20,978 nucleotides of DNA, from contig JALLPB010000184.1 in the NCBI GenBank assembly GCA_036939975.1, forward strand, positions 1 through 20,978. The letters are read 5' to 3'. The DNA is from Cyclostephanos tholiformis (taxonomy: Eukaryota; Bacillariophyta; Thalassiosirophyceae; Thalassiosirales; Thalassiosiraceae). Position numbers and translations under genes: made by a program. Numbering within the stretch: position 1 is the first letter of the stretch; each line of letters starts with the position of its first letter. Positions 8,401-20,978 of this stretch are shown here, in pieces. The notes under the pieces were generated by a model. The model was given only the letters and a program-made list of their open reading frames with translations, searched no databases and had not been told where the DNA came from.

Positions 8401-8815
8401 GATCAGATATTTTTAAAATCAGAGTGTCTTCTAACAAAATATAAAAAATTGAACAATACCAAAACCAACCTGTCTCCAATTTGTTGATGCAAGTATAACT
8501 TAGTAAACACAGATTAATAATTAAAGTTGAGAAGCTCTGATTAAAGCCTTCTCTCATGCTAGTACCACTAGTGATCACCCCAATAATCAGGGGTTATGAT
8601 ATATTCCTGGGCTCCATTTGTACCCATCAACTATTTTGATCAGTGCTCGGGATACTACCTTCAGTGGTCTGTCATTAGTCAGGATTCGTTCTTTTTCACT
8701 TTCCTCAACACATCATTGCCCCCGACGCCAGCATGGAGAACAACAAACCCAGTCCAGCTATTCTTTTTATCCTTGAGTGTGTTTGTCATGTGGTGAACCA
8801 ATCTGTTCTGATTAA

Positions 8816-10493: not shown

Positions 10494-12494
10494 ATGGATG
10501 CAGGGGCGACGACCGGAGGTGCCGTTGCGATGAATCGCGAACAAATAAAAAAGATGAGCGAGGCTGATAAGGAGATGGAACTCAGGGCCAACCGCGCGAA
10601 GGCACTTCTGGCCGAGCGCCACATTGGGCTCAAGACGAACCAGGTGAGAGAGCGGCACGCTATGCGATGGTTCGGGCCATTATATATTCCATCCGTGCCA
10701 TTGTTGCGTCTTCCGCTTTTTTTGCATGTTTTCCAACCAAATATCACATTCCCATCGCACTACATCATGCCCATCATCATTAGGCGGAACGTCACCAGAG
10801 GAAAATGCAGCTCGAAACCCACATGAACAGGGCAGGCCTCTCCCACGAGGAGAAGAAGGCGCGTCGAAAGGAGCTCGAGAAGGAGGAAACCCGCGTCCAA
10901 AAGGAAAGCCGTCGCAACGTGACCACGGCTGACTTCGAGTCGCTCCTGGTCATCGGACGCGGTGCCTTCGGCGAGGTCCGTCTCGTTCGTCGCAAGCCGG
11001 GTAATTCGCGGGGAGAAACGGGAATTTATGCCCTGAAGTCGATGAAGAAAGAGATGATGGTGATGAAGAATCAAGTGGGACACGTCCGCGCCGAGAGGGA
11101 TGCGTTGGCGGCGGCCGATGACGAGAATCGCTGGTTGACGACCCTTCACTACAGCTTTCACGACGAGCACAATCTTTACATGGTGATGGAATTCCTACCC
11201 GGCGGGGATTTGATGAGTCTGTTGATGAAGGAGGATACATTCACCGAGGACGCGACTAGATTCTTCATGGCGGAGGCTGCACACGCCATCAGTTGCGTCC
11301 ATGCGCTCGGTTACATCCATCGCGATATCAAACCCGACAACATCCTCCTCGATGCGAGGGGGCATTTGCGCCTGACCGACTTGGGCCTTTGCAAAAAGGT
11401 CGGTGAAGTTAGCCCCGGGGATCATCCGGAGGTAATCCTCGAGATGCTTAAGCAGAAACAAATTGCCGCCGGCGGCGCGGCGATGGCAATTCCGGAAGGG
11501 GAAGAAATGAGCGCGGATGCATCCCACCTACGTGATATGTCCATCGATGTTGAGGGTGGCGACATACCCTCCATTTCCACGGGCGGGACGGCCCCGAAGG
11601 AATTGCGAACGGGGAAAGCTCGGAGGGAGAATGCCTACTCGACGGTGGGGACTCCCGATTACATCGCTCCCGAAGTCCTCGCGGCTCAGAACGGTGCGTC
11701 TGGATACTCTTACACGTGTGCCGTGGATTGGTGGAGTCTCGGTGTGATTATGTACGAGTGCCTTGTTGGTTATACTCCATTCTACGCAGATGATCCCGTA
11801 ACAACATGCCGCAAGATATTGAAATGGCGCCAGACACTCGAGGTATGTTATGCGTGGAGGGTTGTACATCATCTAATAATTGGATTGTATTAATCGCTTA
11901 CTCGACTCCTCCAACCTTACCCATCACCTCGACGCGGTTAGATTCCAGGAGAAGTTCGTACGAAGCTATCAACGGAATGTGTCGATTTTCTCTCTTGCCT
12001 GCTCGCTGGGCCGGAGTCTCGTATTGGTAGTCGTGCGGATGGCGGACCAGAGTTTGAGAATGGGTTTGCACAGGTAGTGAGGCATCCGTGGTTTGACGGA
12101 TTTGACTGGGATAACCTCGCCGAAATTCAGGGCCCTCTCCTACCAAACGGAGCGAAGGATTTTCCGAGGGTAATTGAATACCTCAAGTGAGTCTCTTGTG
12201 TTTATAATTTTTCAAGAAATCTTCTACAATGGCCATAGTACTTCCCTCTCAATCGCAATTGTTTTTTTATTTTCCTGCATATCTGAAAATCATAGGACAT
12301 GCCCCAACGATGACCCGAACTTCAAACAGCTCGTGGCTTTTGCGACTCAAAACTTTGATACATTCGAGGATCAAGGAACAACTTTGGATGATGGAAGCAG
12401 GAAGCGCGTAGACAGGAATAATCTTGATCAATTCTATGACTACCATTACAGGCGCACTCGCAAGCCTCATATTCCACTACCAGATTTCAAATAG
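10494..12494 (+). CDS. NDR/LATS-family AGC serine/threonine kinase
   Basis: Four exons (10494..10643, 10784..11842, 11942..12186, 12296..12494) encode about 550 aa; introns of 140, 99 and 109 nt are all GT-AG and frame-consistent. Residues 20-100 form a charged helical region expected to bind a MOB co-activator. The kinase domain starts at [15 protein letters not shown] (101-115). It shows K135, E154, HRDIKPDN (229-236), a DLG metal motif (249-251, in place of DFG), a ~75-residue insert typical in position for NDR kinases, the activation-segment serine S336 in [10 protein letters not shown] and APE (345-347). The C-terminal extension has NFDTFEDQG (504-512) and the hydrophobic-motif segment FYDYHY (531-536). 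NDR/LATS kinases act in Hippo/MEN-like control of division and cell shape. Oddity: the hydrophobic-motif phospho-Thr position is His535. The gene converges on the patatin gene, with stops 65 bp apart. Start chosen at ATG 10494, which has a good context (ACGATGG). Confidence 0.94.
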
Positions 12495-18571: not shown

Positions 18572-19279
18572 CAGTTAGGGGCGGAGGATGATATAGCACA
18601 TAAATGTAACAATTTAGTTTCTGCTCCTCTGGACCCCATCACATTGCCTTTAGTATGTAATGTCATCATCAATGATGATGTCACCGTTGTAACGTCTAAT
18701 GTGACACCCAATACATTTTCTAGTGAGCTAGCCGGTTTCACTCCTCATTTGTATGAAATTGCGATTGATGATGCACAAGGCATTGTGGACACAGGTACCA
18801 CGTCCATTTTCATTAAGGAAGGTGTGCCATGTCATAAGAAAACCATGGCAACTAAACCAATCATTGTGAATCTCCCAGATGGTCACCAATTCAAATCCAC
18901 GCACATGTATGAGGTCATGGTGCCAGGATTATCACACCCGCTTCAAGGGCACATCATCCCAAAACTGGCAATTGCATCACTATTTGGCATATGGCCATTA
19001 TGCAATGCACGATGTAAGGTCATCTTCCACAATGATAGAGTAGAAGTTTAGTATGATAACAAACTTATTTTAATGGGACCATGTAATATCATGTCCACCA
19101 AATTATGGACACTTTCATTCACCAATCACATCGATACAACGAAGTCCCACACAGGACTCCAACCAACTAGCCCCACGCTTCAGGATTATGCAGGGTTCAC
19201 ACATTCTGTGAAAACCCGTATGAATGTAGTCCACTTTGCCCACCAATCCCCAAAGCAATCAACCAATAAAAAAGTATGA
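18572..19279 (+). pseudogene. Decayed Copia-type protease and start of the GAG-pre-integrase region
   Basis: The frame continues directly from gag past a TGA at 18569-18571. An aspartic protease active-site motif IVDTGTTSIFI is encoded near 18784-18816, followed by NLPDGHQFKSTHMYEV, the CKVIF segment and a TAG at 19049-19051. After that the same frame reads NKLILMGPCN and MSTKLWTLSF, as in the protease-to-pre-integrase junction of Copia polyproteins, then RMNVVHFAHQSPKQST. It ends at the TGA 19277-19279. No integrase, reverse transcriptase or RNase H follows, so the element is truncated here or interrupted by the next coding sequence. Confidence 0.72.
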
Positions 19280-20224
19280 AAGGTGAAATACATAATGCCA
19301 ATGATTGGACAGGTGAGGAAGCTAACCTGGCAGATAGAATTACTGAATTTTGTAAGGAATTTTTGTTTTCTTTGGGACGATGGACAGACCCCGACGTACC
19401 CACGGAATGAGGGAAGCTCATTCCATTTGGGCTCGACAGCACCATGGCCCTGCTGATTGCCGGGTTAGCATAGTAGTTTTCTAAGCAGCAAGTGGCTGTC
19501 CACACCAAGGGAAGGAAAAGCAAATTTTCCCCTGCGTCTAACGGAAGCGCGGGCAAAACATCAAATAATACTGGGGGGAAACAGCGACGTTGAAGGCAGC
19601 GCAAACAAAATTCGGTAAAACCCCCTTGCCTCTTCGGCGCCGAACCCACTTTAGCAGGACCCAACTTCGCCGCCGCCACCTCCATCGCGAAGAACTCCGG
19701 CGTCGGCACTCCAAAGCAGCTCATCGAGTGGCGGTGGCACAACGCGCCCTATCTCGCCTCGGGCCAGGCACCGTGGTACCGCTACATCCTGTCTGGGAAG
19801 CACTATTTCGATCGATACAAGTTTCCCCCTGAGGGATACAGACGCGTCGTGGGTGACAACGGAGATTGGTCAACGGGCACTGAAGAATAAAAGTCCAACC
19901 AAAATAGGCAAACAACGAACAAGAGCACCAAAAAATGAGCAATTTCCTGCGAGGATTTGGCAGGACAGTCGGGCTCACCAACGACACCGGGGACGACAAC
20001 ATTTGCCGCACAGGCAGCTATGTTGAGGTCAATTTTCTCCAGGGGGCAAACATGCACGGACGTGCACCGCGAGATGCGGAGGGGGATGGGGGCCGAATCC
20101 CCCAGAGAACTCGCCGGACCACGGCAAGGCAAAATTCCTGCGGAAATCCAGAACATCGACAACAACGACGGCATCAGAAGCCAGGTCACAGGCTCAATCC
20201 TGGGCCTCGGGGGGGCGGGGGGGG
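19276..20224 (+). pseudogene. 5' part of an unidentified long coding sequence, broken by stops
   Basis: One frame starting at ATG 19276 (in-frame TAA 9 nt upstream) reads protein-like sequence for more than 300 codons. It is interrupted by TGA 19408, TAG-TAG 19471-19476, TGA 19591, TAA 19888 and TGA 19936. Segments include WTGEEANLADRITEFCKEF, LIPFGLDSTMALLIAGLA, a basic arm near 19555-19610 (GGKQRR, RQRKQN) and an aromatic-rich block near 19720-19810 (WRWHNAPYLASGQAPWYRY). A Ser/Thr/Arg-rich part follows (19960-20200). Codon use is GC-richer than in the Copia remnant next door. I recognise no catalytic domain. If the TAA at 19888 is a true stop, the locus would instead be two adjacent genes. 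Confidence 0.5.
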
Positions 20225-20978
20225 GGCATTGTAGAAGAACGGGGAGGCAACTACAACGAACCACATGCACAGCACCAACCAACGCGAAGGGGGCCAGGGG
20301 GGGGAATTGCGGCAAGAATTGCCCAAATCAAAAACCGCAACGACGATGTTCTCATCGAACGCGAACTAGAGTGGCAAGCAAAAGCCAAAGGCAACAACCA
20401 AGCGGCAATGGCTTTCAAAGAATCAACGATCAGCCAAAACTCGTTCCGGGCCTTTGCGTTCATGAAGGGAAAGTCACCGGCGGTCCACGTGGTTCATTCG
20501 ATTGGGCAATTTTTTGGACTCTCGGGTCTTGCCGTTGACGTCCAGGGAAAATTCATCGGGTTCATCGGCGACAGGGGCAACGGACGATACCCAATGCCAA
20601 TCATCTTCCCACAAAATAACGCGTGGACATGGACAAACGTGACCTACCTAAATGATACCGCAGCATTCACATGGCATTATGAGGACGAGGGCAACAGCAA
20701 ACGACTTTGGAACACAGGGATCAACGATGCCGAGCTCCTTACCAGCGTTGACCTCCCGCGAATGCTCGCTCTGCCTACATGCGTTGCCGAGTTTGTCATT
20801 ACACAAGAGGGGGGATGCCTCCCACACGCGATCCAAAAGTTTGTCAAAGAGAAAATCGATGGCGGGGAGACACAGGTGGCAGGCCATAAATGGCAGCTCC
20901 TACTCAACTGGTGTGTGGCCGCGTCGCAGGAAAAGGACGGAGCAAGCCTCCTTCAATTGGGAGCACCAGAGCCCGCAC
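20225..20978 (+). CDS. Open 251-codon frame running off the window (3' continuation of the same element), unknown family
   Basis: After a G7-C-G10 tract (20209-20226) the protein-like reading shifts by one base. From there to the right edge there is no stop. It reads a Gly/Arg-rich linker, a charged helix (AQIKNRNDDVLIERELEW), then a folded-looking domain: SPAVHVVHSIGQFFGLSG, VDVQGKFIGFIGDRGNGRY, NNAWTWTNVTYLNDTAAF, VDLPRMLALPTCVAEFV, HKWQLLLNWCVAASQ. The first Met after the shift is at 20408. It is incomplete at its 3' end. I associate this style of sequence, from memory and without proof, with multi-copy hypothetical proteins of centric diatom genomes. Function is unknown, and a mobile-element protein is the best guess given its position. 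Confidence 0.6.

Follow-up and report, generated by a model that had tools for sequence, protein, structure and literature searches.

Retrotransposons of the DIRS order are the closest described systems to the sequence analyzed here, which lies at the 3′ end of a 20,978-nucleotide contig of the diatom Cyclostephanos tholiformis (JALLPB010000184.1, contig C184 of the assembly; the whole stretch is referred to as the window, and its end at 20978 is the contig end). The Ngaro elements of the stramenopile Cafeteria burkhardae are arranged as A1-[ORFs]-B1A2B2, with a Gag-like first open reading frame (ORF1), an ORF2 coding for reverse transcriptase and RNase H (RT/RH) and an ORF3 coding for a recombinase (PMC8547959). 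Split direct repeats are common to PAT and Ngaro (PMC6681497). Pat1 elements are reported to have a zinc finger in Gag, and more than one loss of the methyltransferase domain is on record as well (PMC4157794). In Ectocarpus, 15 families are Ngaro and 5 are PAT-like (PMC12477816), its DIRS/Ngaro-like elements having been noted earlier (PMC3145265). For diatoms, a table for Phaeodactylum gives 14 DIRS copies (PMC5859163) and 'Gypsy/DIRS1' accounts for 1.11% in Chaetoceros tenuissimus (PMC8613185); the available portions of PMC2806351, PMC3155517 and PMC3266345 contain no diatom DIRS element. CryptonS DNA transposons are described from oomycetes and a diatom (PMC3212892).

The window very probably contains a single damaged copy, represented by its 5′ end, of a retrotransposon that belongs to the DIRS order and has split direct repeats; a Ngaro-like placement suits it best. 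Relatives in the window's own assembly (24.95 Mb, 1,566 contigs, among them C445, C1122 and all others named below) displayed the order A1 - ORF1 - ORF2 - ORF3 - B1, with A2 - B2 next at five loci. This matches the Ngaro elements of C. burkhardae and Ectocarpus in the A1-[ORFs]-B1A2B2 layout, the Gag-like ORF1, the RT/RH ORF2 and the recombinase ORF3, and Pfam detected no methyltransferase in the present family. The element is longer on C1122 (approximately 7.6 kb) than in Cafeteria (approximately 6 kb), and differs from described Ngaro in that its RT and recombinase fall below Pfam cut-offs and a large number of copies have just one B at the 3′ end. Split direct repeats, RT/RH and a tyrosine recombinase are shared with PAT, and the putative zinc-knuckle Gag is likened to that of Pat1 by the description of the Pat1 finger; most PAT members, however, carry a methyltransferase between RNase H and recombinase. 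The DIRS elements of Phaeodactylum and C. tenuissimus belong to the same order, as compared by annotation label. Cryptons also have a tyrosine recombinase and stramenopile hosts but encode no RT, whereas here an RT/RH ORF directly precedes the recombinase on C445, C641 and C377, together with a Gag-like ORF. Copia elements differ in having one Gag-Pol, a protease, a DDE integrase and long terminal repeats (LTRs) rather than separate ORFs with a tyrosine recombinase. The kind of element is already known, diatoms included, and the family is one more member of the DIRS order.

Coding sequences of the element

A six-frame search of the assembly with the frame at 20225-20977 (251 codons, open to the contig edge) gave 36 matches at E <= 0.001, spread over 28 contigs and counting the window's own; many of these matches contain stops. 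The best non-self match was to C445, with 92% identity. Over 226 codons from position 20300 the window and C445 displayed 58 synonymous and 11 non-synonymous differences, giving a non-synonymous rate (dN) of 0.021, a synonymous rate (dS) of 0.530 and a dN/dS of 0.04, which indicates strong past selection on this last piece of ORF1. ORF1 is a protein gene that was once under selection and not a chance frame. On C445 it spans 922 codons from stop to stop, with 878 amino acids from the ATG used. Searches of environmental sequences with ORF1, ORF2 and the recombinase scored approximately 8,000 candidates each, so that the resulting counts are lower bounds; at least 11 relatives of ORF1 were found. 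An alignment of 11 rows (eight of the 11 environmental proteins and three from this genome) revealed a C-terminal C-x7-C-x4-C-x5/7-H (CCCH) motif in eight rows, the other three stopping short of the motif.

An ORF1 that matches no Pfam family could instead be a gene of the host, whether or not derived from an element, or a frame open by chance, and the preliminary description of this DNA had allowed for a single-copy host gene. Against this stand the 36 matches spread over 28 contigs, with stops in many of them, the link of ORF1 to RT and recombinase ORFs in relatives, the terminal repeats and the splitting of the window ORF1 into three frames. We regard such an origin as extremely improbable, and it was rejected on the number of matches and the dN/dS.

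On C445, ORF2 (957 codons) comes after ORF1 and is overlapped by ORF3 (386 codons), all on one strand and each in a separate frame, and this order is repeated on C641 and C377. Seven RT/RNase H residues were found in an ORF2 alignment of 36 sequences (34 of the 120 listed relatives and two from this genome), six of them in all 36 and one in 35. Three distant ORF2 relatives in the assembly (C420, C1424, C1468; 32-37% identity) matched RVT_1 at 5.5e-5, 2.3e-4 and 3.0e-4, respectively, below the curated cut-off, and are three of 97 RVT_1 matches. ORF3 is a Cre-fold tyrosine recombinase by fold and catalytic residues. Among 50 aligned sequences, out of 120 listed recombinase relatives, the tyrosine-recombinase residues were counted 44 times for Arg I, 50 for His, 42 for Arg II, 47 for Trp and 45 for Tyr. 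Pfam gave nothing above cut-off for ORF3, a sequence search of the PDB with the recombinase profile returned nothing relevant, and no integrase or protease family was matched by seven ORFs searched against Pfam at E <= 0.1. The assembly contained 110 recombinase and 78 RT/RH matches, of which one copy may give several. Environmental relatives at E <= 0.001 numbered at least 1,991 for ORF2, with a single organism name (Thalassiosira exigua) among the 120 listed, and at least 1,353 for the recombinase, including an MMETSP transcript.

A second, distant group of recombinases, approximately 26-32% identical to that of C445, was observed on C1468, C1160, C420, C1424, C19, C1110, C1466 and other contigs, and an ORF2 relative adjoins it on C1468, C420, C1424 and C1160. 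This group probably represents a distinct DIRS-order family.

No methyltransferase was among the Pfam matches, though the RT and the recombinase, too, stay below the cut-offs of Pfam. On C445 there is little room for a methyltransferase between the last RNase H aspartate, at approximately L009:8429, and the opening of the recombinase frame at 8506. The element could be of the same kind and belong to a PAT-like branch that lost its methyltransferase: the split repeats occur in both groups, a Gag zinc finger and repeated methyltransferase loss are both on record (PMC4157794), and Ectocarpus carries both branches. We consider this a possible, though the less likely, placement. The lack of a detected methyltransferase domain favors a Ngaro-like over a PAT-like assignment.

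The preliminary description saw no catalytic signature, which is right for the window; the catalytic ORFs of the relatives lie downstream of ORF1. It proposed searching for a tyrosine recombinase, an RT and terminal repeats, and all three were found in relatives. It also suggested the structural or DNA-binding protein of a poorly described element. The mobile element stands, but its type is a known one (DIRS order, with a Ngaro/PAT layout).

Terminal repeats and points against the assignment

Terminal repeats were located by searching the assembly with two queries, A from the window copy's 5′ end and B from the 3′ end of the C1122 copy. The B search gave 29 matches, 7 of which touched the query flank only and were excluded from the B count. 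A repeat search within C445 or C641 alone found no terminal repeats, which are seen only by comparing ends across contigs. The repeats are split direct repeats, with A1 at the 5′ end and B1-A2-B2 at five 3′ ends (C1089, C1499, C1384, C826, C128); the segment that forms A1 in the window copy there comes behind B1. On C377, which represents a second lineage, the 5′ segment is repeated downstream with 95% identity over 129 bases, directly after B1. C1033 has a B-A junction 5′ of a whole A-body-B unit. When B repeats, trimmed by hand from BLAST coordinates, were compared in pairs, those within a locus (five B1/B2 pairs and the two B copies of C1033) were 77-95% alike with a mean of 85%, and the 72 pairs between loci had a mean of 76% and a maximum of 83%.

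In both lineages the last bases of most B copies are GACTTGA, and A opens with TTG, the A starts having been located with a pattern that requires TTG. The exceptions at the B end are B1 of C826 (TTTTGA) and B2 of C1384 and C1089. This core is a plausible candidate recombination site. No target-site duplication was visible at C1122, the single copy with both flanks. Short hairpins conserved in the A and B repeats were noted by eye (L045-L049, L009:2827-3035), for example GGAATGAGGGAAGCTCATTCC in A.

Several results weigh against the identification. The window itself shows neither RT nor recombinase, its contig ending within ORF1. For ORF1 no Pfam family was matched, an AlphaFold model with 12 sequences reached a confidence score (pLDDT) of 29.4 and was unusable for a fold search, and the putative Gag role is drawn from position and the C-terminal CCCH motif. 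For ORF2, Pfam RVT_1 scored E 0.055 on C641 and 0.085 on the best of nine environmental relatives, both short of the cut-off. A PDB sequence search with the RT/RH profile found nothing relevant, and comparison of the ORF2 profile with nine RVT_1 regions from this genome found nothing, doing no better than a recombinase negative control, although the low diversity of the profile makes this a weak test. Because these searches were weak or empty, the RT call for ORF2 rests on motifs, gene order and the distant relatives that match RVT_1 and form a bridge. Among the repeats, three of the six B pairs from within a locus, at 77, 78 and 81%, lie no higher than the between-locus maximum, B2 was undetected on C377, the copies on C1122, C647 and C641 have just one B, with flank after it, and an intact A1-body-B1-A2-B2 was seen on no contig.

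The window copy and its surroundings

The window copy is broken in frame and also truncated by the contig end, and its parts are given in the table.

Parts of the window copy (positions in the window)
Feature	Position	Strand	Evidence
A1, 5′ terminal repeat; first base is the left element end	19372..19489	+	98% identity to C445 5′ end over 118 bases
Probably untranslated leader from A1 to ORF1	19490..19934	+	C445 pairwise alignment; without significant ORF1 homology
ORF1 (Gag-like) piece 1, starts with ATG	19935..20102	+	tblastn with C445 ORF1, 89% over 56 amino acids
ORF1 piece 2, different frame	20104..20199	+	tblastn with C445 ORF1, 81% over 32 amino acids
ORF1 piece 3, third frame, open to contig end	20213..20977	+	tblastn with C445 ORF1, 90% over 255 amino acids

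The left boundary at 19371/19372 is common to C445, C311 and C1122, being one base earlier on C1122. A search with 19340-19620 gave 17 matches on 16 contigs of the assembly, and 13 of the 16 non-self matches begin at window positions 19371-19373; the remaining three begin at 19361 (C686), at 19368 (C1377) and, for C1089, where the contig itself starts. Since the DNA shared by the copies begins at 19371/19372, the stretch 19276-19371 lies outside the element. The preliminary description had started a single two-frame protein of about 567 codons at 19276. The element begins at 19372 and ORF1 at 19935, coding homology runs through three frames from 19935 to 20977, and the earlier reading had mixed flank, terminal repeat and leader with ORF1; its 251 open codons at the 3′ side were borne out at 20225-20977.

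A1 is almost identical to that of C445, yet the leader directly 3′ of it is largely diverged and unalignable, except for a short conserved hairpin-like stretch near 19540-19565; this combination suggests a between-family mosaic of terminal repeat and leader. Rfam gave a single match in 19300-19950, far below the gathering score, and folding of the C445 5′ end gave a z of -1.69, with 16 of 200 shuffles folding equally well.

Upstream of the element, at 18572-19048, is a protease-like remnant with a DTGTTS motif, which the preliminary description named Copia, which we take to be of the diatom Copia type and which had no Pfam match. At the protein level the assembly holds 31 matches to it, counting its own. 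At the DNA level, 18600-19371 retrieved nothing but itself from the assembly, and the remnant is therefore old or diverged, as judged by sequence. With this remnant directly upstream, ORF1 might be thought to belong to it or to another LTR retrotransposon. The boundary at 19372 separates the ORF1 element from the remnant, whose DNA search gave the self match only, and relatives link ORF1 to RT/RH and a tyrosine recombinase. We give this origin almost no weight, and Copia was rejected on the gene order of the relatives and the element boundary.

Several probable host genes were observed in the left part of the window, among them a 369-codon open frame at 10784-11893 that resembles a protein kinase in its motifs.

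Proposed cycle and significance

In a Ngaro-like element of this layout, the ORF1 protein would package the element RNA, with its C-terminal CCCH knuckle binding nucleic acid, and the RT would copy the RNA into complementary DNA. The internal B1-A2 segment may then let both ends join as a circle with a B|A junction, which the Cre-like recombinase would insert into the chromosome without a target-site duplication. The single-B copies on C1122, C647 and C641 and the array on C1033 might be footprints of recombinase-driven insertion of such B|A circles, including into a resident B|A junction, with B1-A2-B2 and single-B ends as interconvertible forms of one element. We offer this as speculation and think it rather unlikely; if true, the circle-insertion step, modelled so far, would be readable from genome sequence.

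What was first described as an unidentified long protein now has a definite place within a DIRS-order element, one that is common both in this genome and among environmental sequences. Because its proteins score below Pfam cut-offs, routine annotation would be prone to overlook the family. The terminal core common to two distant lineages, with B ending in GACTTGA and A starting with TTG, provides a testable recombination site.
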